Shown in pieces: positions 36,492-54,279 of a stretch of 64,000 nt of DNA. Position 1 is the stretch's first letter. Each line of letters begins with the position of its first letter. Origin of the DNA: Lachnospiraceae bacterium (GTDB lineage: Bacteria; Bacillota; Clostridia; Lachnospirales; Lachnospiraceae); assembly GCA_017620155.1 (NCBI GenBank), contig JAFZQY010000069.1, forward strand, positions 17,109 to 81,108, given 5' to 3'. The notes under the pieces are model-generated. The model made no database searches, was not told the DNA's origin, and was given only the letters and a program-made list of their open reading frames with translations. Position numbers and translations under genes: made by a program.

Positions 36492-38707
36492 ATCGTCATT
36501 CCCTCCTCGATATCTCCGTATGCCACCCAATAGTTGGCATTATCGGATCCGCCCGCAACAAACTTGATGAGTCTTGATGCGCCGTCTTCGTCTTTGACAA
36601 TTACATAAGTATCGTTACCTGTCTTATATACATCAGTCTTGGGGATAAGGATCACATTATTCATGGTCCTCGTGCTCGCTTTGACGGTAAATCTGATCCT
36701 GTACCAGTATCCGTTGCTGTTGTCGGATCCGCCCGATCCAGTCATCGCACTCATGTCTTCCTGTGAAACCTTGACAAGCGAATAGCCCATTCTCATTGAT
36801 TTGGATAAGCCATAAGGATTAAGCGATACAACGGTTCCTTCAGCCTCATATGAATTACCGTTCTGATCCTTGCATATGACCTGGGCGCTGTCGCCGTATG
36901 AGAGCACTCCGCCCTTATCCTCCACGATGATATAGCAGGAATCATCACTGGCGATCTGAAGCAGTTTTTCCTTATAGTTGATGATGGAGCCGGCTTTGAT
37001 GTCACTTACATCGATGACTATGCCGGTATAGGGAGCTTTTATCTCAAAAACCCCGGAATACATGCCCAACTTCTCAAGCTGCCTGTTAAGTGATTCGATA
37101 GTCCTGTTTCGGTCGCGTATAGCGCGATCTATGGTCTCAAGCTCGTCTTTATTATATGTAGTCCTCTTCTGTTCGTTTAAGTCTGCGATCCTCTCGTTCT
37201 GACGCTGGATTTTCCGCTGGATGCGCTCTATCTCTATCGTATCCGCCACGACCTCTATCTTGGCCAGAGTCTGACCTTCGGTTATCTGTTCGAACCTGTC
37301 CACGCAGAGTTCATTCAGGTAGCAGACCCCGTTCTTAGCAGGATTGGCGATCCATTCAGAGTTAGGATAGCTTAAGTATCCGTCGACATTGAATTCGGTG
37401 CTGACAGAGCCCTTATTCAACGTAACGGACTTGGTGCCGACATCATATGGCACATCATATACGACCTTATCGCCTTCACTTAAGCCGCTTAATATCTGAA
37501 TGAAGCCGCTGTCAAACTGTCCGGTGGTGACAGGAGTATATACACTGTCGCCGTCTTTATACAGATATACATACTGTCCGTTATCGTCCTTGCTGACAGC
37601 GTCCTTGGGAACGCACAGTGCATTGGCCGTAACTGATTCAACTACGACGATCACGGCGAACTGACCGAGTTTAACCTTGCCCTCGGGATCAGCCAGTTTA
37701 AATGTGGTGTAAACCTCATCCTCTTTCTGTTTAAGGCGCCTGTATTCCTCGGGCTCCATGTTCTCATATACGACTTCATACTTCTCGCCGTCGATGACAG
37801 CATAGATCTCCACGGCCTTATTAACTATTGATTTGCTGACATACTCGGTCTTGATCTCCATATTGGAGGTATCACCGACCGCTATGATATCTGTTCCGAC
37901 CGGGATGATATCTCCGGCATTGACATAGTTTGCGGCTACGACTACTCCGTCTATCGATGATTCGGTACCGGATTCATTCTTCTCTTCTATCAGTCTCGCG
38001 ATCCTGGTCTCATTGTACTGATATTCCAGTTCAAAGAGTTCACTCCGCTCTTTGTAAGCCTGCTCCATCTTCTCTCTGGCCATTCTGGTCTGCTTAACAC
38101 GGCTTTCCAGAGGCATGGCTCCTTTGGCCCACCCTGCATAATAAGGAGAATCCTCTTCCGGAGCCGATGAGAGCATATTCTGATAATTGGAGGCTGCTTC
38201 AAACTCTTCTTTTTTGGCCTTGGCAATATCGATCACATAATCGGATACATAATCGTTGTACTCCTGAAGAAGTACGGCATTCTCATCCTCGATCTCTTCT
38301 ATCGAATCATCCAGGCCTTCAACTGTTCCGTAAAACAGCATGTCTCCGGCAGATACTTCATCACCCGGAAGGGCATTGAAATTGCCGAAAGGCTGATCGG
38401 ATTCATATGCATACTCATAGGTATCAGGACACACAACGCCCTGATAGGTGCTTACTACGGAAAGTTCACGAACTTCAGCGCTCACAAAACTCAAGGCGCT
38501 TCCTGCAGGCTCTATCAGTTCTATCTCATCATCTGTCAGGACATCACCATCAGCATTATCAGCCGCGGTTTCGGTGCTGTCTGCCTTAGCATCCGTATCT
38601 GAAGGCACGCCGTTGCTGTCAACTGTGGATGCGCATCCTATCAGCATACTTAAGATGAGCAGTATCGATATGCAATTGGCAAATTTTTTTCGCAGTCTCA
38701 AGCTCAT
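36479..38707 (-). CDS. Lipoprotein membrane-fusion-type adaptor, internally duplicated
   Basis: The lipobox LIGC follows a short basic signal, so it is a lipoprotein. The ~742 residues contain two adaptor units. Each has a barrel/lipoyl-like segment flanking a coiled coil: DYVIDIAKAKKEEFEA to ARLIEEKNES, then SSIDGVVVAANYVNAGDIIPVG; and later IEIERIQRKIQRQNERIADL, then FEIKAPYTGIVIDVSDIKAG. Normal adaptors are 350-450 residues with one unit. The start may be this ATG or a GTG one codon earlier. It overlaps the next adaptor's stop by one base. Confidence 0.83.
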   Translation of the reverse strand: MSLRLRKKFANCISILLILSMLIGCASTVDSNGVPSDTDAKADSTETAADNADGDVLTDDEIELIEPAGSALSFVSAEVRELSVVSTYQGVVCPDTYEYAYESDQPFGNFNALPGDEVSAGDMLFYGTVEGLDDSIEEIEDENAVLLQEYNDYVSDYVIDIAKAKKEEFEAASNYQNMLSSAPEEDSPYYAGWAKGAMPLESRVKQTRMAREKMEQAYKERSELFELEYQYNETRIARLIEEKNESGTESSIDGVVVAANYVNAGDIIPVGTDIIAVGDTSNMEIKTEYVSKSIVNKAVEIYAVIDGEKYEVVYENMEPEEYRRLKQKEDEVYTTFKLADPEGKVKLGQFAVIVVVESVTANALCVPKDAVSKDDNGQYVYLYKDGDSVYTPVTTGQFDSGFIQILSGLSEGDKVVYDVPYDVGTKSVTLNKGSVSTEFNVDGYLSYPNSEWIANPAKNGVCYLNELCVDRFEQITEGQTLAKIEVVADTIEIERIQRKIQRQNERIADLNEQKRTTYNKDELETIDRAIRDRNRTIESLNRQLEKLGMYSGVFEIKAPYTGIVIDVSDIKAGSIINYKEKLLQIASDDSCYIIVEDKGGVLSYGDSAQVICKDQNGNSYEAEGTVVSLNPYGLSKSMRMGYSLVKVSQEDMSAMTGSGGSDNSNGYWYRIRFTVKASTRTMNNVILIPKTDVYKTGNDTYVIVKDEDGASRLIKFVAGGSDNANYWVAYGDIEEGMTICSG

Positions 38708-39816
38708 CACTTATAAACCACCTTATCGCCTTCGTTAAGTCCGGAGGTCACTTCTATCAGGTCATCCCCCTCAAGTCCTGTCTCAATCCAGACAATCTGC
38801 CTGAAATCATTCTCATCAAGAACATATACATAGGGTTTTCCGTCCGCATGGTAAATGGCTCCGATAGGCAAAGCAAGCACCTGTTCATGCTTCTCAAGTA
38901 CCAGTTTGATGGTACCGGTCACTCCGACGTCTATTCCTTCATTATCAGGTCCCGAGAACACCTCAAAAACCTGAGTGTCTCCCCAGGATCCCATGTCTAC
39001 GGGAACCACCTCATAATCGCCGGACGCCGAGCCGTATACTATCTTCATCTCCACAGGCTCTCCTTCGTGGAAATATGAAGCATATTCAGGTTCTTTGACC
39101 TCAAAACGTCCCGAAGCATTATCCACGATGGTCATGACCACCTCATCCTTCTTGGATGTGGATCCTTCAAGACCATCCATTACCGTATATACGACACCGT
39201 CCATAGTCGAATAGATATGTCCGGAATTATATTCATTCTTAAGAGAGGCGAGTTTACGCCTGTCAAATTCAAGTTCGTCGTTTAAGTCTTCTCTTTTATA
39301 TACAAAACTCTGTGTGATCGAATCCTGGTTTTTCTGATATGCAGCTACATCATCCTCGCTGATATCGGGATTGTTATACACGAAGTTGTTATATGCGCTC
39401 TGTTCATCAAACTTCTCTGCAGCATCGAGATACGAAAGCTGCAGTTCATTCTTGGATATTCTGTATTCAAGTTCATCGATCTGCTGCTGCAAGTTATCCT
39501 GAGAGAGTTCTATCAGAAGATCGCCGGCCTTGACCGAATCGCCGGGATTGACATAGACCTTGGATACCCGGCGTCCGCCGGCATCAAAAGATACTGTCTG
39601 TTCTTTCAGCTGCATGTAAGTAGCTGTCAGGGATTTCGTAAGTACCACATCTTCACGCGTGACCGCGATAAGACCATAGGCCGATTCCTGCGACTCGTTC
39701 TCGATCACGACCACATTCTCTTCTTCCTGAGCCCCGCAGCCTGCCAAAAGCATGGCAACGATCATAAGGCACACAAGACTATTCAGTTTTTTATGCGTTC
39801 TGTTTATATACTGCAC
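38707..39816 (-). CDS. Lipoprotein membrane-fusion-type adaptor (HlyD/MacA-like)
   Basis: A 369-residue lipoprotein with lipobox LLAGC. It shows the adaptor order: beta segment, GGRRVSKVYVNPGDSVKAGDLLIE (first half of the lipoyl domain), a coiled coil of about 100 residues, STMDGVVYTVMDGLEG (second half), beta barrel, and the end VTSGLNEGDKVVYK. It links the permease to the outer surface in this single-membrane cell type; its substrate is unknown. The start is GTG (39816) with a distant GGAG. A strong hairpin lies 25 bases upstream. Confidence 0.86.
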   Translation of the reverse strand: MQYINRTHKKLNSLVCLMIVAMLLAGCGAQEEENVVVIENESQESAYGLIAVTREDVVLTKSLTATYMQLKEQTVSFDAGGRRVSKVYVNPGDSVKAGDLLIELSQDNLQQQIDELEYRISKNELQLSYLDAAEKFDEQSAYNNFVYNNPDISEDDVAAYQKNQDSITQSFVYKREDLNDELEFDRRKLASLKNEYNSGHIYSTMDGVVYTVMDGLEGSTSKKDEVVMTIVDNASGRFEVKEPEYASYFHEGEPVEMKIVYGSASGDYEVVPVDMGSWGDTQVFEVFSGPDNEGIDVGVTGTIKLVLEKHEQVLALPIGAIYHADGKPYVYVLDENDFRQIVWIETGLEGDDLIEVTSGLNEGDKVVYK

Positions 39817-39840: not shown

Positions 39841-39867
39841 GCGGGCGGTGTAATTTTCACCGCCCGC
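39841..39867. terminator. Perfect 10-bp GC-rich hairpin between binding-protein and adaptor genes
   Basis: GCGGGCGGTG, a 7-base loop and CACCGCCCGC pair perfectly. It lies 45 bases past the binding-protein stop at 39912. No clean T run follows on minus, so transcript-end stabilisation or partial termination is likelier than full termination. Confidence 0.6.
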
Positions 39868-39911: not shown

Positions 39912-41393
39912 TTACTTATTAGCGTCATCAACATACTGCTTCCATGTATCAGCGATAGCCTCAACAACCTCGGAAACTACACAGTTAGGAACGATGTTCC
40001 ATGTGAGGTCGGGTCCGATGGAGAGGTTCGGGATCATACCGTGGAATGCGATAGTACCGTGAGATGCCTCAGACATCATAGGGATGGTCTCCTCAACTGC
40101 TCTGGAATCATAGATACCGTCCATAGCTCTGGAGATAAATCCGTTGTATCCCTCATAACCTGCGGGATCATCAGTGTAGAGATTCCATGCGAATGCGATC
40201 TTCCATGCTCTGTCTTCATCATAGCAAGCGGGGATTGCTGCAGGGTTGTTATCCCATACATTGATGTAGTCTTTTCCGCTGGGTCCCTTAGGGAACATTA
40301 CGAAGCCGAGCTCATCCTGCATATCTGCAAGGAAGTTGCCGGGTGTTCCAGCGTACTCCTGCTCTACCATGAAAGCAACGTTTCCGTTAAGGAACTCTTC
40401 TTTGTAGTAATCCCACTCAGCACCCTCGGGATCATGGTTGTCATACTTGGTGAACATATCAACAGTCCACTCAAGAGCCTCGGTAGTCTCAGGAGACTCA
40501 AGGTTATAGAAGTAGCCGTTAGCATCCTTGCCGATGAAGGATCCGCCGTTAGCGAATACAGCTTCCTCAGTCATAACGCCCTCGTTAAGGGTCAGGCCGT
40601 ATACATCATCGGTACCGTCGTTATCGGTATCACGCTGGCACTCGCCCATGAGCTCATCAAACTTGTCCCATGTCCATGTGCCGTCTGCCTGCATGTCATA
40701 GATGCTGTCAGGATCGATACCTGCTTCCTCAAGTACTCTCTTGTTGAAGAATACACCTGTACGAGGCTCGGAAATACCTGCATACATAGCATAGATGGCA
40801 TCACCCTTGCTGTACTGCTCATGCAGCTTGTTAAGCTGGAACTTCTCAGAGCTGAAATCAAGGCAATCAAGTGTAGAAAGATCATACATAAGGCCGCTTG
40901 CCATAGCTGATGTGATAGCCGGGTCAGCACGAAGAGTCCATACATAGTTGTTGTCATCTCCGCCTGATGTACAATAATCAACGAAATCCTGAGGTGTTGA
41001 ACCCCAATCGGAGATTGCAACCTGTTTAATCTTGAAGTTGTAGGTCTCCTGGATCCAATCACGCCACTCCTGCTGAGCTTCCTCATAATCGTTTGCAGGC
41101 TCTGCAGGCTCTTCGGGTGACCACCAGTCACGGATTACGATCTCCATGCCGCCGAGGTCATAGGTATCGCCGTTCTCGTCGGTAAGTACTGTGTAAGCAC
41201 TAACCTCCTCCTCTTCTTCCTCAGCTGTCTCTTCAACTGCTGCATCAGCAGTCTCTGTGGCAGTTTCGGTTGCAGTGTCATCGGCTGCGGGTGCTGCAGG
41301 AGTCTCTGCTGCGCCGCCACAGGCTGTAACACTCATAGCCATAGCTGCTGCAGTAGCTGCTGCTATGACCTTCTTTGCCATAGGCTTTTTCAT
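39912..41393 (-). CDS. Sugar ABC transporter substrate-binding lipoprotein
   Basis: Family 1 solute-binding protein, 493 residues. The signal peptide ends in the lipobox VTAC, followed by an Ala/Thr/Glu-rich spacer (about residues 27-68) ending in EEEEEEV. The mature part has the usual carbohydrate-binding order, including a VFFNKRVLEEAGIDPDSIYD segment and FMVEQEYAG. It lies 104 bases downstream of its two permease genes. The Lys- and Asp-rich end suits an oligosaccharide binder, but the ligand is not readable. AGGAGG is a strong ribosome site, fitting high expression. Confidence 0.92.
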   Translation of the reverse strand: MKKPMAKKVIAAATAAAMAMSVTACGGAAETPAAPAADDTATETATETADAAVEETAEEEEEEVSAYTVLTDENGDTYDLGGMEIVIRDWWSPEEPAEPANDYEEAQQEWRDWIQETYNFKIKQVAISDWGSTPQDFVDYCTSGGDDNNYVWTLRADPAITSAMASGLMYDLSTLDCLDFSSEKFQLNKLHEQYSKGDAIYAMYAGISEPRTGVFFNKRVLEEAGIDPDSIYDMQADGTWTWDKFDELMGECQRDTDNDGTDDVYGLTLNEGVMTEEAVFANGGSFIGKDANGYFYNLESPETTEALEWTVDMFTKYDNHDPEGAEWDYYKEEFLNGNVAFMVEQEYAGTPGNFLADMQDELGFVMFPKGPSGKDYINVWDNNPAAIPACYDEDRAWKIAFAWNLYTDDPAGYEGYNGFISRAMDGIYDSRAVEETIPMMSEASHGTIAFHGMIPNLSIGPDLTWNIVPNCVVSEVVEAIADTWKQYVDDANK

Positions 41394-41497
41394 AGTTTTC
41401 TCCTCCTTATGAAATGAATCGCGGACTATGATTCCGCATATATATAAACTGTGGTTTACAGCTTATATCAAAACTGATCCCATCACCCAATACAATA

Positions 41498-42502
41498 TCA
41501 CATTTTGATACCTGTTGACGAAATACTCTCAACAAACTGTCTCTGTGCGAACAGGTAAAGGATGATGAGAGGAAGTATGATCATCAGAGTACCCGTAGCC
41601 AGTATACAGTTGGAATATGCGATCGATATGGTAGTCTTAACGCCTGTGATCCTCTGGATATAGGCTCCGAGTGAATCTACAATCCTGGACAGCGATGTGC
41701 TCACAAGAGTGGTTCCGCTTAAGAACATCCTGGAGTAGAATCCGTCAGTCCACTGCCATACAAACGCAAACAGGAAGCATGATGTGATGATCGGCTTCGC
41801 CTCAGGAAGCATTATGGTAAAGAATGTCTTGAGCGTGCCGCATCCGTCAACATATGCCGCTTCTTCCATATCCGAAGGGATATTCCTGAAGAACTGCCTG
41901 ATCATGTATATGTACAATCCGTTCTTCAATCCCATACATCCCGCACTGAGCAGATAATACGGCAGGACCGAACCTCTCAGGTTAACCGTATCACCGGTTA
42001 TCAGCTTGATGATACCGAGTATATCGAAGAATCTGAAATGCAGATGCAGTGAACTCGATATCGTCTGCGGCGGGATCAATATAACAAGTATAACACAAAG
42101 GAACCAAAATTTCTTGAAAGGAAACTCAAACCGCGCAAATCCGTAGCCTACGAGCGTGCATACTCCTATCTGGAGTATAGCGATCGTAAGCGAGATAACG
42201 AAGGAATTGATGATCGCCTTCTTATAATTCATCAGTTCGGCTGCCAGTTTATAGTTATCAGTCGTAAAATGCTCGGGAATGCTGATAACTATGGGGTTAT
42301 AGAGGTCAGCCTCGGTCATGAAGCTTACGGAGATCTTGTTGAGTATGGGCTGCAGGATCATAAAGCACATACCGAAGAGCAATATGAATCTCGCAAAGCT
42401 CACGGCATATTCAAGTATCCTCTTCTTGACCAGATATCCACCCGACGCGCGGTTTCTCTCCCAGAAGTTATCGAATGTCTTAACTTTTGTCTTCTTACTC
42501 AT
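41498..42502 (-). CDS. Sugar ABC transporter permease, MalG type
   Basis: Inner-membrane permease with six helices and the EAA loop EEAAYVDGCGTLKTFFTIMLP that docks the ATPase. The 334 residues include a ~30-residue N-terminal cytoplasmic extension. It pairs with the MalF-type permease upstream (8-base overlap) and the binding protein downstream. No ATPase gene accompanies it; a shared MsmX-like ATPase elsewhere is expected. G-rich ribosome site at good spacing. Confidence 0.93.
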   Translation of the reverse strand: MSKKTKVKTFDNFWERNRASGGYLVKKRILEYAVSFARFILLFGMCFMILQPILNKISVSFMTEADLYNPIVISIPEHFTTDNYKLAAELMNYKKAIINSFVISLTIAILQIGVCTLVGYGFARFEFPFKKFWFLCVILVILIPPQTISSSLHLHFRFFDILGIIKLITGDTVNLRGSVLPYYLLSAGCMGLKNGLYIYMIRQFFRNIPSDMEEAAYVDGCGTLKTFFTIMLPEAKPIITSCFLFAFVWQWTDGFYSRMFLSGTTLVSTSLSRIVDSLGAYIQRITGVKTTISIAYSNCILATGTLMIILPLIILYLFAQRQFVESISSTGIKM

Positions 42503-43406
42503 AGTAGTAAACCCCCCTGGATATGATGCCCGAGGTGATTCCTACAAAGGCAAGCACGATCAGGAAATATACCCACGACATGGCTGATGCAAGTCCGTAA
42601 TTCATCTGATCGATCATGACCTTCTGGATCTTCTCGATGACTCCGTTGTCGGAACGCATACAGAAATCGATAACAGTATATATCCAGTTAACAAGGAACA
42701 GTGAACTGATCATCGGGAAGGTTATCTTCCACAGACTCTCCCACTTCGTACAGCCCTCGATCTCGGCGGCTTCATACATGCTGGATGATATGGTCTGTAA
42801 TCCCGAAAGGAAGATGATGATCTGGATACCGGATGCGATAGCCACATCATATATATTATCGATGATCTCAAATACCTTTTCGAAAGCTCTGGTACCTACT
42901 CCTGCGGTTGTAAGGACCTGCTCCAGAGCATCCGTGATACTGATGTTGGATGTAGTCGTCTCGATCTGTGTGGCAAGTGTTGCCATCAACTGGTTATCCG
43001 ACTCAAGGCCCAGGATAACACCCGAAGAAAGGATAACGGGCAGGAAGAATACGGCTCTGACCAGAGCTCTTCCCTTGAACTCCTGGTTAAGGATGAGTGC
43101 CACGAAGAAGGAAAAGACCATGATAGCCAGTGAATATATAACCATTCTGGAAATCTCTTCAACCAGCAGTCTGTTGTATTCAGGGTCAACCATAAATGCA
43201 TGCTTGTAGTTCATCAGACCTTCCCAGATCGGGTCGATTATACCGGAACCCAGCTGCACATCACAGAAACTCATATAGAGAGACTGGAAGAAGGGTTTGA
43301 CCATGAACGCCAGGAAGCCGATGATAAACGGTGATATGAACAGATATCCCGCTATCGCCTTTCTCTTCTGTAGCCCGGCCAGCTTTTTAGCATTTTTACT
43401 CATCAT
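42495..43406 (-). CDS. Sugar ABC transporter permease, MalF type
   Basis: A 303-residue permease with six helices; EAA loop is EAAEIEGCTKWESLWKITFP. It has an unusual ~50-residue extracellular insertion (about 127-175, LESDNQLMATLATQIETTTS onward) before the fourth helix. GGAGG lies five bases before the ATG. It follows the DUF5696 gene by 20 bases. Confidence 0.92.
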   Translation of the reverse strand: MMSKNAKKLAGLQKRKAIAGYLFISPFIIGFLAFMVKPFFQSLYMSFCDVQLGSGIIDPIWEGLMNYKHAFMVDPEYNRLLVEEISRMVIYSLAIMVFSFFVALILNQEFKGRALVRAVFFLPVILSSGVILGLESDNQLMATLATQIETTTSNISITDALEQVLTTAGVGTRAFEKVFEIIDNIYDVAIASGIQIIIFLSGLQTISSSMYEAAEIEGCTKWESLWKITFPMISSLFLVNWIYTVIDFCMRSDNGVIEKIQKVMIDQMNYGLASAMSWVYFLIVLAFVGITSGIISRGVYYYE

Positions 43407-43426
43407 ATTCCTCCGAACCGCCGTGT

Positions 43427-46015
43427 TTATCTTACAACCAGATAGTCTCTGGCAGGAACAGTCACACCATCTGCTGCATAATCTTCATATCCGTAGTTCA
43501 CATAGACCCTGGTACCGTCTTCATATTCGGTGCAGGAAACCGTCTCGGTGAGTTTAACATGTGAACTCATCTCCTGATTGAATGTATGTCCGAGTTCCGA
43601 ATTATATCTGTTATAGGTTTCATCTATATCCTTATGGCAGGAGTCAAATTCCGAACCGTAGTATTCCGTATAAAGTGTCTTCTGAAGGATATATGCGCTT
43701 TCCTTCATGATCGTGTAGGAAAGTCCGGCGCCGTACTCTGCCGCACAGAGGATCGCCTCCTCGGAATTACCGCAGATATTGATCGGCTTACCGGTATAAT
43801 CGATATATCCGTGAAGTGCCAGCTGATAGAAAGGAATATACTCATCAAGTATCGTATACTCGCTGCCTCTTAAATCCATCTCAGTCACAACATCAACATA
43901 AGGAACTGCATAGTCGTTACCCATGTTGATCATGACCTTAGTGGAATCAAGGCCTTTGAACCTTTCCTCCTGGAGTTTGGATACAGACTCTCTCGAATGA
44001 GGATTCTTCCTGTAGAAATCACTGGACAGATCACGTCCGTCATTCTCAAATGAAGCACCAACACCGTACTTCTGAGCCTGAGCCGAGAGGTTATCAGACA
44101 GCTGGCCCGCAATATCCGTATGAAGCAGATAATACGGATCCAGATCATCTCTCTGGGCATATGTCGTACGGCTGTATTCCATGAGCTTAACACGCTCTTT
44201 GCTGATGAGCTTGGCAGCATCGGTATATGAGAAGAATCCGTCGGTGATATCCGAATCCCATGCATACTGTGTGATACCGTTAAGATACAGATTGGCGCCC
44301 ATGCCGCCTATCGTATCGGCCAGCTCCTGCAGATCCTTCTTAGAGCCGAGTTTCGAATTGACATGCACTTTCTTAAGGATCTTCTGCTTTACGCCGCCGT
44401 TGCACCATCCGCTGAGTTTGACCGAAATGTTGTTCAGTCCTTCATCATGGAGAGTGGTGACCATCTCACCGGCTTCATCAAAAGTCGTGAGCTTAAGAGG
44501 TCTGGATACGGGTACACCGACAACCTGCTTAACCTTGTCCACAGCACCGACAACCTCGATAACAACAGGGGCGTTGGAATCCGTATTCATGCTTAAGTAC
44601 TGACCGTACTTATCCTTGAGGTAATCTCTGTAGTCCTTGGCCATATCCACATAGTCATTGCCTGATATGAAGCTGTATCTTAAGGCAAGTGACTCATCCG
44701 GAAGAGAATCAAGATACTTATATACATCCGAATTGGCTATATCGCCGACATCATACTGCTCTCTCTGGCATATGGAGTAGATCGCATTGACGAAGTTGTA
44801 AGAATGGTTTTTACCTGCAACATCGGCCTGGATGGCTGCATATGAACGGCCGTCTTCGAGCACGCATACAAATGAGTCATCTCCGTTGGCTATGCCGTAA
44901 GCCGCATAATAGGTTCTGGTATTATGAACCACGGCTTTACGTGTAAGACACATATCCCAACCGTATACATTGGCATAATAGTTGTTCTGGGAAACCTTGC
45001 CGTTATTGAAGTTAATTATGGATCCGCCGCCCTCGGGCACCATCATATATCCTGTGTCCTCGGTACCGCCGCACCCGAAGTACGGAAGCGGAGTAAGCGT
45101 GTAGATCGGATAATCACTCTTATACTGCATATCGGAGAACGGGATCTCGACTGTCATGTCATCTCCGTCAAGCCTGTAGATCATGCTTATATCGAATATG
45201 GGCTTATCGGATGATCTCTCCGAAAGGTCAAGTTCCTTATCAGCCGTAAAGTCTTCATATGTATAACCGGCATCCTCAAATATGCCCTGTAATTTCTTAC
45301 GTACGGCTTCCTTAGTATTGCTTCTTAAGATATAGAGTTTCTGATTGGCAAGTTCGGGATAATTGGCAAGAAGCTCATCTTTGTCATCCTTGGGACTGAG
45401 CTTATTGATGTCATATTTCTTGTAATACTGTGAAACAACGTTGACATCGCTGTCGTCCATTTCCGCCGTCCATTTCTTATAGGAATCCATGGTCATGACG
45501 GGGGGGATGACATATTCTTTCTCAACATTACCGATCGAATAGTCCACTCTGACGTAATCATCACCCTGTTCGATCTCATATATGCCGTTGGCGATACTCA
45601 TGTCATAGCAGTTGAGCGTTGTCTCAAGACCTGTCTCAACGGCATAGGACATGATAAGAGGCGACTGAAGCTTATTCTTCTCCTCGGGCAGCGCGATCGG
45701 GTCATCGGCCGCATCCTGGGGATTGGAATACCATACCTTGCCGGACTCCTTTACTTCCACCGTAAACTGGGTGGTAAGGGGATCCATGGTGAATTTCAGA
45801 TCATCGTTTTCCATGACGATGGGCTTCTCATCGCCGGCAAAAGCGCGTATCTCAACGATTTCCTCGGGCTGTTCGATATTCTGGTAGTTGATAACGAAGA
45901 ATACCAATCCGAAGATTATGGCAGCAAGCACTGAAGGAAAGATCAGACTTTTTAATGTCTCTTTGATCTTATTATTGCGCTCGGTTATTAATTCCTGACT
46001 TTTCTCTCTTCTCAT
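43427..46015 (-). CDS. DUF5696-family surface protein
   Basis: An 862-residue protein with one N-terminal membrane helix (IFPSVLAAIIFGLVFFVINY) and a long extracellular part. From memory it matches the DUF5696 family found beside sugar importers in Paenibacillus and Lachnospiraceae; its function is not known. The middle and C-terminal parts look like a beta-sandwich followed by a TIM-barrel-like, glycosidase-type region (VSVKLSGW-like strand, then YLLHTDIAGQLSDN, KVMINMGNDYAVPYVD). I cannot identify a catalytic pair. It sits between YIP1 and the second permease set. GGAG lies seven bases before the ATG. Confidence 0.75.
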   Translation of the reverse strand: MRREKSQELITERNNKIKETLKSLIFPSVLAAIIFGLVFFVINYQNIEQPEEIVEIRAFAGDEKPIVMENDDLKFTMDPLTTQFTVEVKESGKVWYSNPQDAADDPIALPEEKNKLQSPLIMSYAVETGLETTLNCYDMSIANGIYEIEQGDDYVRVDYSIGNVEKEYVIPPVMTMDSYKKWTAEMDDSDVNVVSQYYKKYDINKLSPKDDKDELLANYPELANQKLYILRSNTKEAVRKKLQGIFEDAGYTYEDFTADKELDLSERSSDKPIFDISMIYRLDGDDMTVEIPFSDMQYKSDYPIYTLTPLPYFGCGGTEDTGYMMVPEGGGSIINFNNGKVSQNNYYANVYGWDMCLTRKAVVHNTRTYYAAYGIANGDDSFVCVLEDGRSYAAIQADVAGKNHSYNFVNAIYSICQREQYDVGDIANSDVYKYLDSLPDESLALRYSFISGNDYVDMAKDYRDYLKDKYGQYLSMNTDSNAPVVIEVVGAVDKVKQVVGVPVSRPLKLTTFDEAGEMVTTLHDEGLNNISVKLSGWCNGGVKQKILKKVHVNSKLGSKKDLQELADTIGGMGANLYLNGITQYAWDSDITDGFFSYTDAAKLISKERVKLMEYSRTTYAQRDDLDPYYLLHTDIAGQLSDNLSAQAQKYGVGASFENDGRDLSSDFYRKNPHSRESVSKLQEERFKGLDSTKVMINMGNDYAVPYVDVVTEMDLRGSEYTILDEYIPFYQLALHGYIDYTGKPINICGNSEEAILCAAEYGAGLSYTIMKESAYILQKTLYTEYYGSEFDSCHKDIDETYNRYNSELGHTFNQEMSSHVKLTETVSCTEYEDGTRVYVNYGYEDYAADGVTVPARDYLVVR

Positions 46016-46045
46016 TTGAGCTCCTGAACAATCTTTATTTATCCA

Positions 46046-46702
46046 CTACAGTCTGAATAAGAACTCTCTTACCAGAGATACGAAATACAAAACACCCTGC
46101 GAGATCATACTGAAGAAAATCGTGAGTATGAAAACCTGAACGAGCATCGCAAATAGCGAAGCAACGGTAAACAGCAGATTCTTGCCGGCTGAGAACTCAT
46201 GTATCTGTCCCATTGCCGATACGATCAGAATCGCTGCATATATAAGCGAAATAGCACTGAGCACGCTGTAGAACTGTCCCTCTTCGACTGTTACCACATT
46301 ACTCAGCAGCATCAGCGGGAACTGTATCACCGGATAAGGCAAAAGTCCGTAGCACGTAGCCATATAAACCTGTCCGAGCTTGCCCTTGCCGTCAAACAGC
46401 GTAGTAAGAGCCCAGTTACCGACAACCCACAGTCCCAGAGGGAAAAGTATGCTGGCAAGATACAGGAAGATATTGGCTTCCTCCCAATACACCTGAATGA
46501 ACAGGAAGCTCGTAAACCTGAGTTTCATGAGTCTGACAACGAGTGTTGCGATCAGAATGGTATTGGCTGCAGCATAAGTACCGCGCCTTTCATGTGTCAG
46601 ATCCCAGAATCCGTCAACCGGATGCGTCAGACAATAGAACGCAAACTTAAGAGACCTCCAGTATTCAGTCCATGTTTCCTTTTTGGTTAAAGATGAAACC
46701 AT
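46046..46702 (-). CDS. YIP1-family integral membrane protein
   Basis: 218 residues with about five membrane helices after a short amphipathic start (LTHPVDGFWDLTHERRG is characteristic of this bacterial group). The YIP1 family is widespread and of unknown function in bacteria. It lies between NHL/TPR and DUF5696 genes, both of which encode membrane-tethered extracellular proteins, so it may organise or anchor them. AAGGAG is well placed before the ATG. Confidence 0.78.
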   Translation of the reverse strand: MVSSLTKKETWTEYWRSLKFAFYCLTHPVDGFWDLTHERRGTYAAANTILIATLVVRLMKLRFTSFLFIQVYWEEANIFLYLASILFPLGLWVVGNWALTTLFDGKGKLGQVYMATCYGLLPYPVIQFPLMLLSNVVTVEEGQFYSVLSAISLIYAAILIVSAMGQIHEFSAGKNLLFTVASLFAMLVQVFILTIFFSMISQGVLYFVSLVREFLFRL

Positions 46703-46716
46703 ATCGACTCCTTTTA

Positions 46717-48231
46717 TCAGGTGTTAAATATATCTGCCGTATCAATGTCGTGTTTGATCGACTTAAACTTGCCTATGCCCATCGGGATCAGGAACAGAGC
46801 CAGCAAAACGGTTACTATGATCGCTATATGCTCTTCAACCCATTCCTTGCGGTACTGCTTAAATGCCTTGGAGTAGTTCTCGTCATCATATTTGACCTCG
46901 AAATAATCCATGGCTTCCTTATATCTCTCCTGACGCAGATAAGACCGTCCGATGCCGATATATGCCAGATCATAGTTGCCGTTAAGCTGCATAACGCGCT
47001 CCCAGCACTCTCCGGAGGTCTTATAATCGCCTTCGTCGAACTTATCTATCGCTTCATATACAAGAGAACCGAATTCAGTAGGTACGAATACGGTGATGGC
47101 GCAATCAAGCGTATCTAAGACGTACAGATCATGCTGGTAATGCTCTATCGCAACGGGACGTCTGAAGAAGCCGTCCATGTTTCCGTTTCCGCCGAAGGCA
47201 AAGACCATGTGTCCCTGATCATCATATCCGAAGCACCTGCCTCTGTTTCTGTCCAGGCATACATAGATATCATTATCAAATACGGTAACATCGGAGAAAT
47301 ACGAAGGGCCTTCATATCCGCCGCCGCTTCCCATATGGATGTCGCCGTAGATACCCCACTCTCCGTTTCTGACCAGAATATCGTTACCCATAAGATTTAT
47401 CTTACGGATGGCGTCGGCCTTATCGGATCTTAAGTCTTCTCTGGTCACGGCACCTGTAACCGCATATATGAATCCCTCGTAATCCATGTAGATGTTGTCA
47501 TACTCGGTCGGAACAAAGTTCTCCATCTGCGCACGCTGAGCCTGCGTTGCAAACTTCTTCCATACATAATCCAGGAAATCGTATGTAACCTTGGTCGCTC
47601 CGATGAATCCCGAGAATGTTCCGTCAGGTTCGTATTTGATAAGACCCTTGTTGATACCTGTGGCTATGCAGTATACACGCTCAGCAGTATCAATGGCTAT
47701 CTTATTGGGCTGGAACGTGATGCTGGGATCAAGCGTGTTATCAACCGGCTTATCGTATTTAAGGAGCAGGTTGAAATCGGGGTCGAGCTTGAGGATCCTG
47801 CCGTTACCGCGGTCTGCGATAAAGAAATCGCCCTCCTCCGAAACAGCTATATCCGAAGGAGCATTAAACGTGGAGTTGGCATCACCCTTAAAGCTGTCGA
47901 TGATACGTACTACATCAAACTTCTCACTTGATACTCTCTTAAGTTCAATGATGCGGTTGTTGCCCGTATCGCATACATAGAGCAGATCTCCGTACACAAA
48001 CAGGCCCTCGGGGCTCTTCATCTTGACATCAAGGCCGAGTTCCGATGAAGTGAACACCTTGCTGACCGTATAGAAGTCGGGGGAATCCTGAACATCACCC
48101 CAATAGTCCAGATTATATGTATAACTGATATCTCCGGTCGACGGATCGGCAAGAGCTGTCATCGGTGCGATATTCACCGCAATGATCAGACCCATTATCG
48201 CTATGCTGATATATCGTATAAGTTTCTTCAT
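46717..48231 (-). CDS. Secreted, membrane-tethered NHL-repeat / TPR protein
   Basis: Signal peptide (MKKLIRYISIAIMGLIIAVN, cleavage near TALA), an NHL beta-propeller over residues ~60-380 with repeats such as GLFVYGDLLYVCDTGNNRIIEL and DIAVSEEGDFFIADRGNGRIL, a TPR-like pair at ~395-460 (ALKQYRKE-type helices), and a C-terminal helix (HIAIIVTVLLALFLIPMGIG). It would display a propeller outside the membrane. NHL propellers bind ligands or proteins; here the neighbours suggest sugar sensing or complex assembly, which is inference. Confidence 0.82.
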   Translation of the reverse strand: MKKLIRYISIAIMGLIIAVNIAPMTALADPSTGDISYTYNLDYWGDVQDSPDFYTVSKVFTSSELGLDVKMKSPEGLFVYGDLLYVCDTGNNRIIELKRVSSEKFDVVRIIDSFKGDANSTFNAPSDIAVSEEGDFFIADRGNGRILKLDPDFNLLLKYDKPVDNTLDPSITFQPNKIAIDTAERVYCIATGINKGLIKYEPDGTFSGFIGATKVTYDFLDYVWKKFATQAQRAQMENFVPTEYDNIYMDYEGFIYAVTGAVTREDLRSDKADAIRKINLMGNDILVRNGEWGIYGDIHMGSGGGYEGPSYFSDVTVFDNDIYVCLDRNRGRCFGYDDQGHMVFAFGGNGNMDGFFRRPVAIEHYQHDLYVLDTLDCAITVFVPTEFGSLVYEAIDKFDEGDYKTSGECWERVMQLNGNYDLAYIGIGRSYLRQERYKEAMDYFEVKYDDENYSKAFKQYRKEWVEEHIAIIVTVLLALFLIPMGIGKFKSIKHDIDTADIFNT

Positions 48232-48243
48232 ACTGTCTGCCCC

Positions 48244-49143
48244 TTAATCTTTGAGACCCGAGCTGGCCATCGTCTCAAGTATCTGGCTCTCGGAGAATAT
48301 GAATATGATGATGGGAACTATCATTACAACAACCAGTACGGCAGCGCCCTGTCCTGTTCTGGCGATACCGCCGCCCTGTATCTGCTGAAGGGCATAAACA
48401 AGCGTCTTACGCTCTTCTGAATAGATATATGTAGATGCCTTGTTGTTCCACAGAGCCTGAACCGAGAAGATGATCAGCGTCATCCAGGCAGGCTTGACAT
48501 TGGGCATTACTATGCCGGCGAAAACCTTCCACTCATTGGCGCCGTCGATGTGAGCGGCTTCTATGAGCGAAGTGGGAAGTCCTTCCATGAACTGCTTCAT
48601 AAGGAACAGGCCCATGGGCGACGCAAAAGCGGGAATGATGATGGCCCAATATGTATCGATCCATCCCAGTTTGTTCAGGATCAGATAGTTGGGGATCTGT
48701 GTAACATAACCGGTAAACATCATCGCTACGGTAACTATCTTGAAGAACAACTGATTGCCGGGGAATTCATACTTGGCCAGTACAAACGCGCCCATGGAAG
48801 CGATGATCAGGTGTCCTGCGGTACCAACAAACGTGATGAATACCGTGTTAAACAGGTATCTGGAGAAAGAAACCCATGACTTACCCATCGTTACGAACAG
48901 ATCCGAGAAGTTATCCAGCGTCGGATGCTGTGCGAAAACGCGCGGAGGGAACTTAAAGAGCTCATCAAGAGGCTTCAGCGCACTGCTGACCGCATATACA
49001 ATGGGGAAAACCATGACCAGCGCAACCAGTAACAGGAAAAGATACAGTGCGATATCTCCCGCTATGGAGCGGTTCGGTTTTCTTTTCTTTATAAGAGGCT
49101 TTCTGTAAGGCTTTTCGGCAATCTCTTTTTTCTTTCTGCTCAT
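48244..49143 (-). CDS. Sugar ABC transporter permease, MalG type (first importer set)
   Basis: 299 residues, six membrane helices, preceded by a highly basic cytoplasmic start. The EAA loop is EAAHIDGANEWKVFAGIVMP. It begins one base after the stop of the MalF-type gene. The final helix is followed by the common ETMASSGLKD end. It is distinct in sequence from the second MalG at 41498-42502, so the block holds two separate importers. Confidence 0.93.
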   Translation of the reverse strand: MSRKKKEIAEKPYRKPLIKKRKPNRSIAGDIALYLFLLLVALVMVFPIVYAVSSALKPLDELFKFPPRVFAQHPTLDNFSDLFVTMGKSWVSFSRYLFNTVFITFVGTAGHLIIASMGAFVLAKYEFPGNQLFFKIVTVAMMFTGYVTQIPNYLILNKLGWIDTYWAIIIPAFASPMGLFLMKQFMEGLPTSLIEAAHIDGANEWKVFAGIVMPNVKPAWMTLIIFSVQALWNNKASTYIYSEERKTLVYALQQIQGGGIARTGQGAAVLVVVMIVPIIIFIFSESQILETMASSGLKD

Positions 49144-49144
49144 A

Positions 49145-50083
49145 TCAGGTTCCTACTCTCCTCAAAAGACTCTGGATAGCTTTGTTACACAAGATCATCA
49201 TCAGGAACAGGATCGTAGCTATCGCACACGCATAACCCATCTCGAATCTGGAGAAACCGTAGTCGAAAAGGTGGGTAACTATGGTTCTGGCAGCGTAGTC
49301 GGTACTGGGGTATCCGCAAAGGGCCATCGTGACATCGCAGACGCCGAATGCCTGAGTGATACTCATAACGGCACCGAACATCAGCATGGGCTTCATGTTG
49401 GGTAGTGTGATATACCAGAGTTCCTGCCAGCGGTTCTTGACTCCGTCCATATATCCTGCTTCAAACTGGGATCTGTCAACACCCTGAAGACCGGCAACGA
49501 ATGAAAGGAATCCGGTACCGAGACTCATCCACAGGATGACCAGCATACATATCGGAAGCATGAACTTGGGATCTATCAACCAGAGCTTGGGCGTATCTAT
49601 GATACCCATGTTCATGAGGGCTGCATTCACGTAACCGTAAGCATCACCTCTGAAGAATACCGAGAAAATGACATAGCAGTTGCCGGCAATGGAGGGAGCA
49701 TAGAATACAATGACGGCTACGGAACGGACCCATCTGGGAAGTTCATTGATCAGCCATGCAAAAAGAAATGACATGATATAGCCGAGAGGTCCCGTGATGA
49801 TGGCTATCATGAACGTATTCTTCACACCCAGAAGGAAGATATCATCCTCCAGGATCAGGCTTATATAGTTCTGAAGGCCGATGAACCTGGGAGCTTCCAG
49901 TATGTTGTAGTATGTGAAACTGTAATAGATCGATGCTACAACAGGGAATACGAAGAACATCGTGAACAGTATCGCATAGGGAGCCAGGAACAGATAACAC
50001 ATCTTTCTGCTCTTCGCCTTTCTCCATGCTATTCCTGCTTCATGCCTGCGCAGCGTGAAATACTTCTGAATGTACTCTTTCAT
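49145..50083 (-). CDS. Sugar ABC transporter permease, MalF type (first importer set)
   Basis: 312 residues, six membrane helices with an N-terminal basic stretch. Its EAA loop is diverged: EAGYMDGVKNRWQELWYITLP, with Gly at the third position. It follows the large binding protein by 13 bases; AGGAG lies six bases before the ATG. Confidence 0.92.
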   Translation of the reverse strand: MKEYIQKYFTLRRHEAGIAWRKAKSRKMCYLFLAPYAILFTMFFVFPVVASIYYSFTYYNILEAPRFIGLQNYISLILEDDIFLLGVKNTFMIAIITGPLGYIMSFLFAWLINELPRWVRSVAVIVFYAPSIAGNCYVIFSVFFRGDAYGYVNAALMNMGIIDTPKLWLIDPKFMLPICMLVILWMSLGTGFLSFVAGLQGVDRSQFEAGYMDGVKNRWQELWYITLPNMKPMLMFGAVMSITQAFGVCDVTMALCGYPSTDYAARTIVTHLFDYGFSRFEMGYACAIATILFLMMILCNKAIQSLLRRVGT

Positions 50084-50096
50084 CCTATACTCCTGA

Positions 50097-53018
50097 TCAT
50101 TCTAAGGGCATTCCGAACTCTTTACGTTTCTTCTCTATCTCTTCGTCGATCTTGATAGAGTAGTCTATGATCGTCTCACGCGAATCCGTTTTCTCGTTGA
50201 TCGACTTACGGATGGCGTTGGATATATGACGTCCGGTGAAGTATCCACCGGGAACCTCTCTGATGCCTCGGGTCTGATCCCACTGTTCGTTGAGGACCGA
50301 TATGTCCTCCATGCTCCAGGACAGATTCGAGAACGCATCTCTGTTGGCCGTAGCATATCTCGCACTGGAGCCAAGCAGTGCCTCAATCTCACGGCCGAAT
50401 CTGATCTGGGTATCAGGCTGTGCCCACCACTTCATGAACTCCCATGACTTATCCTTGAGTTCCTGATCCTCTGTCGTGATCATCATCGTGGCCGAACCTG
50501 TGATGAAGTCGGATCTGTCGATGTATTCCCTGCCGTTCTCATCTGTTCTGGGAGTACCCGGTATGACCGTGAAATCCCAGAGACCTCTGATCTCAGGTGC
50601 GGATACCATCAGAGTGTTGTATGTCGAATAGGGAGCTATACCGATCGGCATCTCACCCGATCTGAAACGGCTGACAAAATCATAAACCGTAGGAATACCG
50701 TAATCATTGAAGTATCTGACGTAATCATCGAACGCCTTGATGCCCTGCTCGGTATCAACAGTAGTCTTGGTTCCTCTCTCGTTGTACATGTCACCGCCAT
50801 ACTGGAACAGCAGTGAGAAATAAAGCGAAAGGTCGGGAACGTTGGACATGACCGCAGTCGAGCTGGTAGCAGTCGTCGAAGAACCGGCAGCGGTAGGAAT
50901 ACCGACAGACAGGTTGTTACCCTGAATGGTAGGCAGCTCTTCGATCAGATCCTGCCATGTATCGGGTACTTCGAGTTCAAGTTCTTCGAGGACGTCCTTA
51001 CGATAGAACATAACATTGAACGTCTGTGTCTCAGGGATCGCATAGATATGCTCATCCAGACGGTACTGCTCGTATGAACTCTCTGAATAATGTGAAAGTA
51101 CTTCCTCCCAGTCGCTGAACTGTGTCAGATCCTCGGAAGCATTACGCAGTGCATAGTTAACGGGCTGGTCGGCGCCGATCGAAAGAACAACATTGGGGCC
51201 GCGGCCTGCCATAACGGCATTCAGGACAGCTGTCGGATCAACGATCTCAACGTTGACCTTGATACCCGAATCGGGTGTGAACGAATCATCAACCATGGCT
51301 TTTAAGATAGTGCCCTGATCACGTCCGGTCAGGACCCAAACCTTGACTATCTGCTCTCCCGAGCCCTCCTCATACACATCGCCGACCGAGTTATAGTCAA
51401 CGAAGAACGATGCGAAGAATGATTTGGTCTCATGCCAGAACTTGGTGAAAAAATTGGCCTGCTTCTTCTCGGGAGTAACATTGGCTCCGGAAACAACGAG
51501 ATAATCAATATCAAGCTGAGTATCGCTCAGGTTAAGTGTTGCAGTACCGAGCGCCGTGATATTGTCCTTGAATGTAACGAACTCGGTAGTGATCTTCTGC
51601 GGCTTCTTACCGAATCTCTCAAGCTGCTGTGCTACGGTCTGCGCACTTGCGATATTCGCTGCCTTCTGACCCGAGAACGCAACCATCTCATCTACTATCT
51701 TGTAGAGACGTCTGGACTCGAGATCCATGGCTTCCATGATCTCGGGGTACGTGGTATCTATGCGGTAATCACGATACTGGTCGGGATTGGCACCGGTATA
51801 TACAAGAATCTTTCTGTAGATCTGGTTAAGTCTGTAAGTGGAATCCTCAAGTTCCTCAAGTATCGGACCCATATCGCCCAGAGTAGCCTCAAGACGTAAA
51901 GTATGCTTACCCTTTGTCAGATAGAAACTGTAAGGAGTACCCTCTTCATCCGCAAGGTCCTTATATTCCCAGTCGTTGCGGTAATCAAAGGAGATCTCAT
52001 CAAGCTCCTTGAAGGGAACTTCTCCGTCTATATAGACCTTACGTGAGGATACGCTTCCTCTCGAATAGTTCTGGCGTCCCTTGATGCAGATATTGTAATA
52101 CCCGTCCTCGGGCACTTCGAATTCCCACTCGATCCACTGTCCGTTCTTACGCCAGGTCTCGCCGCCCACATAGTTAAGCACCGTGTTGGTCACGCTATTG
52201 GGAACAGTCGTCGGAGATGATCTGTCATACTTCGCATACAGCGATGATTCGGATCTGGCGGTGGAAGTCTCGCCCTGAACTATGGTCTGGAAATTCTTAA
52301 CGGTATCACTGGATGTATCTGCAGGATTGGCTGCGAGATAATCCTCATATGTTACATCATCGGTCTGACCGATGAGAGAAAGCTTCTTAATGAGCATGGG
52401 CTCATTGTCGGCTATAAGAGTGAGTTCATTGGAACCTTTTGTAAAAAAGAACATGTAGGGCTCTGTGATATAACCCATGTCATCGCGGAAATATGCGCTC
52501 TGCCAGTCAAATACCTCTGACTGGATGGGTCTTAACTGGTTGCCCTGGTTATCAACTCTCACCGGGCCGCCGTCTGTCCATATCCTGGTGAAGGAGATGT
52601 TTCTGGCATCCTCAAAGGGGATCTCGCCGTTGACCATGACCGTACGCTCAGCGGGAACGCCGCGGGACTCGGTGATCAGATACTCGATATACAGACTGTA
52701 CATGCCGTCTGCGGGAACATCTACCTTAAAGGTAACTTCGGAACCCGTATCGGTGAACAGAGACTTCTCATTGTAATCGGATGACTCGGAAGCTTCGCCT
52801 TCGTTAACCTTGTAGTCGAATATATCCACGTCGATGACTGCATCCCTGGGAGACTGAACGGACTGGTGCTCGAGAATGTATCTGGTATATGTACCCGTTC
52901 TCTCAAGGCCCTCAACATCAGTCGTAAGATCGACTCCTTCGTATTTCTCGTGGAAATCGTCTATATCCCGCATTGCCAGCAGCACACACAGAACCGTGAA
53001 TGCCGCAACAACTGCCAC
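50097..53018 (-). CDS. Membrane-anchored solute-binding protein with two N-terminal sandwich domains
   Basis: The C-terminal ~420 residues (from about 556) are a carbohydrate-type solute-binding fold (VKVWVLTGRDQGTILKAM; FNVMFYRKDVLEELELEVPD). Before it are two homologous beta domains at ~90-220 and ~290-410, each with VPxDGxY and a later RxVxxxGExPF motif, like CBM6/35-type sandwiches. A helical linker follows. It has a membrane helix, not a lipobox. I give the GTG start at 53018, but a better start (ATG 53051, GGAG seven bases upstream) is in the same frame and would read MNDFLK, then a TAG stop at 53033-53031. The gene may carry a nonsense mutation. It heads the importer block. Confidence 0.82.
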   Translation of the reverse strand: MAVVAAFTVLCVLLAMRDIDDFHEKYEGVDLTTDVEGLERTGTYTRYILEHQSVQSPRDAVIDVDIFDYKVNEGEASESSDYNEKSLFTDTGSEVTFKVDVPADGMYSLYIEYLITESRGVPAERTVMVNGEIPFEDARNISFTRIWTDGGPVRVDNQGNQLRPIQSEVFDWQSAYFRDDMGYITEPYMFFFTKGSNELTLIADNEPMLIKKLSLIGQTDDVTYEDYLAANPADTSSDTVKNFQTIVQGETSTARSESSLYAKYDRSSPTTVPNSVTNTVLNYVGGETWRKNGQWIEWEFEVPEDGYYNICIKGRQNYSRGSVSSRKVYIDGEVPFKELDEISFDYRNDWEYKDLADEEGTPYSFYLTKGKHTLRLEATLGDMGPILEELEDSTYRLNQIYRKILVYTGANPDQYRDYRIDTTYPEIMEAMDLESRRLYKIVDEMVAFSGQKAANIASAQTVAQQLERFGKKPQKITTEFVTFKDNITALGTATLNLSDTQLDIDYLVVSGANVTPEKKQANFFTKFWHETKSFFASFFVDYNSVGDVYEEGSGEQIVKVWVLTGRDQGTILKAMVDDSFTPDSGIKVNVEIVDPTAVLNAVMAGRGPNVVLSIGADQPVNYALRNASEDLTQFSDWEEVLSHYSESSYEQYRLDEHIYAIPETQTFNVMFYRKDVLEELELEVPDTWQDLIEELPTIQGNNLSVGIPTAAGSSTTATSSTAVMSNVPDLSLYFSLLFQYGGDMYNERGTKTTVDTEQGIKAFDDYVRYFNDYGIPTVYDFVSRFRSGEMPIGIAPYSTYNTLMVSAPEIRGLWDFTVIPGTPRTDENGREYIDRSDFITGSATMMITTEDQELKDKSWEFMKWWAQPDTQIRFGREIEALLGSSARYATANRDAFSNLSWSMEDISVLNEQWDQTRGIREVPGGYFTGRHISNAIRKSINEKTDSRETIIDYSIKIDEEIEKKRKEFGMPLE

Positions 53019-53271: not shown

Positions 53272-53319
53272 GATGTTCAAATATTGAGCAAACAAAAAGC
53301 AATAGTTGACGAGGTTGAA

Positions 53320-54279
53320 ATGGCAAACTCTACAGTTTCTGCTTCCCGCGCTCCTCTTCAGATAGTACGCGTAAGGGACATATCACACACAAATACAGAC
53401 TGGCACGGACGAGTCCTTCATATGAAGGAAGAAACAGAGATCTTCCCCGATGACAGTTACATACGTATATGGCAGAATGAGCAGGATGAGGATTACCCGA
53501 TCCACTGGCATAACGCATTCGAGATCATACTTCCCGTAGAGAACGGCTACACCGTTGAAGTCGAGCAGGAACGATTCGACTTAAATCCCGGAGAGATCAT
53601 TATAATACCGGCCGGTAAATCACATTCGATCACCGCACCGGAACACGGACGCAGATACATACTGCTCTTCGGCATAGGATCCATGTCCAAGATCCGCGGA
53701 TACAACAGCATACTCTCATTGCTCAACAGCACCATGCTGATCACGCCCAATACAGCTCCCGAGATATACAGCGATGTATATACCCGCATCACCCAGATGA
53801 TCAGCGAGTTCTTCAATGACAACGACTTCTATGAGTTCAGCATATATTCGAATCTGATGAGTCTGCTGGTTTCAGTCGCAAGATACTCTCTGGCCATGAA
53901 CAGGGACAGTGTTCCGGGTTCGTATATGACCAAGAAGAAACACTTCCACAGATTCCAGCAGGTGCTCGATTATATCGACGTTCATTATGCCGATAATCTG
54001 ACACTGGAATCCGTTGCCGAATACGGCGGTTTCTCCAAATACTATTTTTCCAGGCTCTTCAAGGATTATTCGGGATATAACTTCTATGATTATCTGATCA
54101 TGAGACGCATCAAGGCTGCCGAGCTGCTGCTCACCCAGCCCAGGCTGTCCATTACGGAAGTCGCACTGCAGTCAGGTTTCTCCAGCATTTCCACATTCAA
54201 CAGATCATTCAAGAAGATCAAGGGATGTACACCGGGAGAATACAAGGCCATCTATAACCGCAACGAGCCTCCCTTCTGA
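53320..54279 (+). CDS. AraC-family transcriptional regulator with cupin sensor
   Basis: 319 residues. The N-terminal half is a cupin-type effector domain (HWHNAFEIILPVENGYTVEV, then LNPGEIIIIPAGKSHSI). The C-terminal ~100 residues carry two helix-turn-helix motifs: LTLESVAEYGGFSKYYFSRLFK and SITEVALQSGFSSISTFNRSFK, ending KGCTPGEYKAIY. I start at ATG 53320, with GAGG five bases upstream; an earlier TTG at 53284 is less likely. It diverges from the importer block and converges with GH10, so it probably activates these in response to an oligosaccharide. Confidence 0.9.
   Translation: MANSTVSASRAPLQIVRVRDISHTNTDWHGRVLHMKEETEIFPDDSYIRIWQNEQDEDYPIHWHNAFEIILPVENGYTVEVEQERFDLNPGEIIIIPAGKSHSITAPEHGRRYILLFGIGSMSKIRGYNSILSLLNSTMLITPNTAPEIYSDVYTRITQMISEFFNDNDFYEFSIYSNLMSLLVSVARYSLAMNRDSVPGSYMTKKKHFHRFQQVLDYIDVHYADNLTLESVAEYGGFSKYYFSRLFKDYSGYNFYDYLIMRRIKAAELLLTQPRLSITEVALQSGFSSISTFNRSFKKIKGCTPGEYKAIYNRNEPPF

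Follow-up and report, generated by a model that had tools for sequence, protein, structure and literature searches.

The window analysed here, a 64,000-nucleotide stretch of a Lachnospiraceae bacterium assembly (GCA_017620155.1, contig JAFZQY010000069.1, positions 17,109 to 81,108 of the forward strand), holds a cassette of nine minus-strand genes at 39912-53018 which, with a probability of roughly one half, encode a single coupled oligosaccharide importer of CUT1 type that includes three accessory proteins. In reading order the genes encode a large binding protein (SBPL), permeases F1 and G1, a protein with NHL and TPR parts (NHL), YIP1, DUF5696, permeases F2 and G2, and a second binding protein, SBPS (Table 1; all positions are those of the window). 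The parts of a CUT1 importer, a binding protein with two BPD_transp_1 permeases, are present in both sets, and the intergenic gaps are 13, 1, 12, 14, 30, 20, -8 and 104 bp. An original prediction, made from the letters alone, had described nine same-strand genes with short gaps, and the frame list, Pfam and the measured gaps bear it out. That the arrangement exceeds chance is confirmed, the cassette is held together in many fibre-degrading bacteria, and the trio of NHL, YIP1 and DUF5696 is supported as one conserved unit linked to the importers, its closest tie being to the F2-G2 pair.

Conservation of gene order and co-occurrence

Gene order was followed in two sets of loci by six-frame scans, for which the profiles came from the window genes and from homologues within the two sets themselves. 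The sampled set comprises 40 of the 57 places phylum-wide with a DUF5696 match above 400 bits, drawn from 35 of 37 genomes. For the named set the top 80 were taken out of 562 relatives found, a choice that biases it to close ones; it includes Butyrivibrio, other Lachnospiraceae and Clostridia, and 14 of its 80 records are titled Treponema or Spirochaetia. The order NHL-YIP1-DUF5696-F2-G2 was intact in all 40 sampled and in 70 of the 80 named loci, and the ten exceptions all reach contig ends, one of them (L113) additionally with a split DUF5696 frame. The trio adjoins F2-G2 in all 110 uncut loci, with YIP1 itself found at 40/40 sampled and 78/80 named loci. All nine families are present in 23/40 and 60/80 loci, respectively. 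The SBPL-F1-G1 set varies in position, lying ahead of the core (26/40 sampled, 61/80 named), behind it (5/40 sampled) or apart from the trio. The annotation of a Butyrivibrio fibrisolvens plasmid gives the form with a separate YIP1 and the remaining genes in the same order.

Co-occurrence across 398 genomes points the same way. Strong matches were defined by cut-offs that we chose at gaps in the match lists (DUF5696, 400 or 300 bits; NHL, 200; SBPL, 390). DUF5696 exceeds 400 bits in 37 genomes, and two more pass the family cut-off at about 26 bits, while NHL exceeds 200 bits in 38, which are those 37 and one further genome (G243) whose matching frame, at the end of a contig of 8.5 kb, is incomplete. 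The N-terminal part of SBPL exceeds 390 bits in 36 of the 37 DUF5696 genomes, the piece in G103 being cut by a contig start, and also in G104 and G154 (contigs of 3.8 and 4.3 kb). Weaker SBPL-like matches occur in five genomes of family f18 (110-160 bits) and, lower still, in G355 and G375. The totals at looser thresholds were 46/398 genomes for DUF5696 (E 1e-3; 39 over the family cut-off), 65/398 for NHL (E 1e-15) and 46/398 for SBPL (E 1e-6). The original prediction had placed the middle three proteins in a putative surface capture or sensing assembly feeding one or both importers, and had suggested a search for co-occurrence across genomes. This reading is partly supported: in these samples the three show no independent variation, and the core order is kept throughout the uncut loci.

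The NHL and YIP1 proteins

A hydropathy scan predicts one N-terminal span each in SBPL and DUF5696, two in NHL (residues 10-28 and 469-487) and four in YIP1. With profile A2, the NHL protein matches NHL and TPR structures in the PDB. YIP1 is fused to it in 20 of the 40 sampled loci: where a separate YIP1 gene was not seen, the NHL protein has a greater length and a C-terminal part that matches YIP1. The fused proteins have 672-835 aa in 19 of these loci, and the remaining locus, cut by a contig end, gives a 410-aa piece. An apparent absence of YIP1 from distant lineages was accordingly rejected, as YIP1 is there fused to NHL. On a Paenibacillus cellulosilyticus plasmid, a 719-aa gene annotated as YIP1 occupies the NHL position, and its annotated length fits the fusion. 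The fusions and the predicted spans are consistent with a membrane assembly.

DUF5696 and its relation to GH129

DUF5696 shares the GH129 fold over about 570-580 residues with NagBb (5wzn) and DagB (5opq), and the sequence similarity is significant. In contrast to these two, DUF5696 has a membrane span and a fixed genetic link to permeases, and the catalytic Asp435 of NagBb and its second catalytic residue, which we take to be Glu478, align with Asn658 and Asn697 of the window protein. Judged by alignment A4, which combines the window protein with 43 of 56 representatives (a further alignment, A8, holds 42 of those 44), the GH129 catalytic pair is mostly lost in the family. The authors of the DagB work propose a separate family for DagB.

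Two proteins of about 560-585 aa (L172 and L173) stand between DUF5696 and GH129 in sequence and keep the GH129 Asp and Glu; they are candidate active relatives. PDB searches with the second half of the barrel and with the weak relatives L160 and L161 gave nothing informative, nor did a profile comparison with these two, which reached the barrel only to residue 659. Weak DUF5696 matches L163 to L167 were set aside as unrelated, judged by their first 70 letters only. A PF11308 search matched 0/249 genomes, but its controls were silent too, which leaves it uninformative. Among open-licence PMC papers, our literature search returned no paper on DUF5696.

Binding proteins and flanking enzymes

SBPL consists of an N-terminal hydrophobic stretch, about 540 conserved residues with weak CBM35 and Golvesin_C matches, and a C-terminal SBP domain at 567-874 (alignment of n=16). 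The PDB entry nearest to its SBP part, Lin1841 (E 3.6e-9), is distant, as is that nearest to SBPS, the arabino-oligosaccharide binder 6rjy (E 1.3e-6). The SBPL frame could begin with an ATG at 53051, but codon 7 after it is an in-frame TAG, which is why the 973-aa frame listed starts at a later GTG. The SBPL frame of a close relative (contig C109, below) has no stop at that place, and the TAG may be a sequence error, a strain variant or a genuine truncation.

SBPS is the most divergent component in the named loci L072-L124, with a mean identity of 0.48 and the lowest distance correlations (0.34-0.61), and at some loci several SBPS-type genes stand in tandem behind G2 (six in L058, four in L063). 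The tally of proteins flanking the cassette drew on 56 of 133 from the Lachnospiraceae, Clostridia and Treponema sets (29/42 and 27/91) and on 53 of 77 from the distant set. The commonest in the former, GH43 (7), GH10 (5), GH115 (3) and GH5 (3), fit xylan, whereas the distant set is mixed, with GH26 (4), alginate lyase (3), GH28 (2), GH42 (2) and GH10 (1); the P. cellulosilyticus cassette is surrounded by flavin-dependent oxidoreductase genes. Since the flanking enzymes are mixed across sets, the cassette core appears to be reusable.

Comparison with described systems

The original prediction had called the system undescribed, which is too strong, because nearly the same order is in print for the heat-loving C. 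bescii. Rodionov et al. (2021, PMC8579813) describe an operon xloEFG-X-GH129-axoFGE-xynF-..., differentially expressed on xylan and placed under XynR and AraR, whose order in the text of Table 3 (E-F-G, X, GH129, F-G-E, in the xylan degradation locus) is that of the window; no separate YIP1 is listed there, whereas the window has a separate YIP1 and an FtsX module. By gene order, rather than by sequence comparison, X and GH129 would be the NHL and DUF5696 orthologues. Genus g140, presumably Caldicellulosiruptor, has the same order with YIP1 fused to NHL. Expression of the two importer sets under unrelated conditions, which the original prediction had named as an outcome against it, was not seen; the C. 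bescii operon holds both sets and is listed as xylan-induced. Among open-licence PMC papers, we found none that treats NHL, YIP1 and DUF5696 as subunits and none that pairs YIP1 with binding-protein and permease terms.

Rodionov et al. describe the C. bescii CUT1 transporters as having no dedicated ATPase and sharing MsmK, whose deletion mutant grows poorly on xylan. CUT1 importers with a shared MsmX or MsmK resemble the cassette in their binding protein and F and G subunits, and MalK-type matches lie elsewhere in the bin; the cassette differs in having two permease pairs and three conserved accessory proteins. A second precedent is YknW, a Yip1 protein and ABC transporter assembly partner in the Bacillus YknWXYZ system (PMC4887032). 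There, as in the window, a Yip1 protein accompanies an ABC transporter, and the window too has MFP, ATPase and FtsX-type permease genes, which lie downstream of the cassette and resemble YknXYZ; YknWXYZ is, however, an efflux-type complex, whereas in the window YIP1 goes with NHL, DUF5696 and importer permeases.

ATPase supply and the FtsX module

The original prediction that no ATPase is present holds for the importer type: none of the nine genes encodes a MalK/MsmX-type ATPase. It does not hold for ABC ATPases at large, as two others lie nearby in the same direction (Table 1). The idea that these two drive the importers was rejected, since they are grouped with FtsX and HlyD-type genes in a module that is optional. 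Two other contigs of the bin, C121 and C57, carry OB_MalK matches at their starts; the upstream neighbours of these matches are cut off by contig ends, and the downstream frames, judged by their first 60 letters, are not permease-like. When UgpC of P. cellulosilyticus was searched against 120 loci, no picked frame exceeded 108 bits, against 201 for the cut MalK-type frame of the bin. The weaker matches seem to be of other ABC types; among them are ATPases that follow the cassette at a distance of a few kb in several Treponema-titled loci. On the P. cellulosilyticus plasmid, a gene annotated as ugpC (L169, 6561-7670) is the immediate upstream neighbour of the cassette, and flavin-dependent oxidoreductase genes come after the cassette.

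The FtsX/MFP label appears at 1/40 sampled and 24/80 named loci. In a family sample of n=120 genomes, DUF5696 was found in 48 (38 over the cut-off) and FtsX in 17; DUF5696 exceeds 300 bits in 14 of the 17 FtsX-bearing genomes versus 27/120 overall (Fisher p 1.4e-8, from related genomes that are not independent), and 13 of these 27 have no match to the window FtsX at E 1e-30. In place of the fixed set of Yip1, MFP, ATPase and MacB-like permease that marks YknWXYZ, we found an optional FtsX/MFP module beside a near-constant YIP1.

A proposed coupled importer and its alternatives

From the computed gene order, co-occurrence, NHL-YIP1 fusion, GH129 fold, non-conservation of the catalytic pair and MalK-type matches elsewhere in the bin, we infer how substrate, physical assembly, the platform role of DUF5696, ATPase pairing and joint action of both permease pairs might fit together. 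The cassette would here import xylan fragments. SBPL, held in the membrane with its carbohydrate-binding-like domains outside, would serve F1-G1, and SBPS would bind oligosaccharides of a lineage-specific kind and pass them to the F2-G2 permease, with an MsmX/MsmK-type ATPase encoded elsewhere powering both pairs. The NHL-TPR protein and YIP1 may form one membrane scaffold, and the membrane-anchored DUF5696 may sit at F2-G2 as a glycan platform or gate that does not hydrolyse. A wider proposal, which we put forward tentatively, is a separate class of multi-subunit glycan importers whose twin permeases require three further subunits, namely DUF5696 as a one-time glycosidase, a beta-propeller/TPR protein and a Yip1 membrane protein. 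Swappable binding lipoproteins would direct this core to different glycans, among them xylan, mannan and pectin.

The usual view of ABC sugar importers comprises a binding protein, two permeases and an ATPase; a core order kept in several Bacillota lineages and in Treponema-titled records suggests that some plant-wall glycan importers have further required parts. We suggest that an assay should come before any GH129- or DUF5696-labelled protein of a plant-fibre degrader is taken for an enzyme. The coupled-importer reading is testable in C. bescii, where gene deletion has already been done.

Several observations weigh against a coupled importer. Eight of the 40 sampled loci, some of them cut by contig ends, have DUF5696 but lack the SBPL-F1-G1 set, and the profiles of the order scan derive from members of the very loci scanned. 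Three genomes (G104, G154 and G243) hold NHL or SBPL pieces with no DUF5696 match; these lie on short contigs (3.8, 4.3 and 8.5 kb), and the A4 search that came back empty for them had no positive control. Pairwise distance matrices correlate at 0.88-0.95 across the 82 loci with all nine genes, and NHL and DUF5696 distances at 0.89 in the named loci L072-L124, values that partly reflect shared ancestry because no unrelated control family stands alongside. As to DUF5696, both GH129 catalytic positions are acidic in 7 of 44 proteins and the Asp position still in 28 of 44, the mapping being a sequence alignment rather than a superposition of coordinates and covering the NagBb pair only; DagB is an active enzyme that retains just the Asp of the two NagBb residues. 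In addition, near-fixed charged positions (Arg675 in 44/44, Glu760 in 43/44, Asp724 in 41, Asp666 in 40) make other catalytic machinery possible.

The alternative that survives best, although we consider it unlikely, draws on these last points: DUF5696 would be an active membrane-bound exo-glycosidase that uses other residues and trims side sugars before import, held by the permease through NHL-YIP1. The GH129 fold and sequence similarity agree with it, as does the GH129 gene that Rodionov et al. list at this place (PMC8579813). The window protein, however, is acidic at neither position, few relatives are acidic at both, and the cassette accompanies enzymes for different polysaccharides, where one would expect a lone exo-enzyme to go with one particular sugar.

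We give a low probability to the trio being a surface sensor that reports bound glycan and stands outside the import machine. NHL and TPR parts are common interaction modules, and an AraC-type gene, mostly divergent, adjoins the cassette in many named loci; this regulator is nevertheless optional (HTH label at 1/40 sampled and 27/80 named loci), as against the constant place of the trio by F2-G2, and the trio proteins have no Pfam match to kinase, phosphatase or anti-sigma domains. Equally improbable to us is that two ordinary importers and three unrelated surface proteins share an operon through co-regulation and joint transfer. Gene sets can travel together, and the C. bescii work treats these genes as two separate CUT1 transporters (PMC8579813), but the core order stays constant in surroundings that differ in their enzymes, regulators and FtsX module, and NHL and YIP1 are fused in many loci. 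Least probable is that YIP1 is the functional partner of the FtsX/MFP module, on the model of YknW and YknXYZ, making the trio an exporter- or assembly-type machine beside the importers by chance, for despite that precedent and the enrichment of DUF5696 among FtsX-bearing genomes, MFP genes stand beside 1/40 phylum-wide loci versus YIP1 in 40/40, and about half of the DUF5696 genomes have no FtsX match.

The bin and other features of the window

Completeness of the bin is 88.6 percent and its contamination 6.6 percent. Its second DUF5696 contig, C109, shares syntenic stretches with the window at 74.5-84.7 percent DNA identity; given this level and the contamination, two cassette copies in one genome were rejected, and two close relatives binned together are more likely. 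The MalK-gene contigs C57 and C121 are 92 percent alike over 457 bases, and the pairs C57/C121 and C92/C109 suggest that the bin mixes two close relatives.

Table 1. Genes of the nine-gene cassette and its neighbours, by position in the window.
Feature	Position	Strand	Basis
SBPL, large binding protein	50097..53018	-	973 aa; Pfam SBP_bac_8 and SBP_bac_1; CBM35 and Golvesin_C below cut-off
F1, CUT1-type permease	49145..50083	-	Pfam BPD_transp_1
G1, CUT1-type permease	48244..49143	-	Pfam BPD_transp_1
NHL, beta-propeller-like and TPR-like protein with C-terminal span	46717..48231	-	Pfam NHL; TPR models below cut-off
YIP1, multi-span membrane protein	46046..46702	-	Pfam Yip1
DUF5696, N-terminal span and GH129 fold	43427..46015	-	Pfam DUF5696, 648 bits
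F2, CUT1-type permease adjoining DUF5696	42495..43406	-	Pfam BPD_transp_1
G2, CUT1-type permease	41498..42502	-	Pfam BPD_transp_1
SBPS, binding protein, lipoprotein-like start	39912..41393	-	Pfam SBP_bac_1
AraC-type regulator, divergent, optional neighbour	53284..54279	+	Pfam
MFP1, HlyD/MFP-like lipoprotein, optional module	38707..39816	-	domain scan
MFP2, HlyD_3 protein, optional module	36479..38710	-	domain scan
FtsX-type permease, optional module	33693..36530	-	domain scan
ABC ATPase beside FtsX gene	32992..33693	-	domain scan
ABC ATPase beside FtsX gene	32097..33002	-	domain scan

Past SBPL, the divergent AraC gene is followed by GH10, GH5, GH5 and GH43, and a 410-aa frame with no Pfam match at E 0.01 (62520-63752) adjoins a GH8 gene. 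Downstream of SBPS lie two HlyD-type proteins, the FtsX permease, the two ABC ATPases, GH43, an unmatched gene and GH120. The unmatched gene (29524-30498) encodes a 324-aa cysteine-rich protein with relatives at 28/80 named loci. Between SBPS and MFP1, a pattern match marks a 10-bp GC-rich stem at 39841-39867, a possible boundary between the importer genes and the FtsX module.
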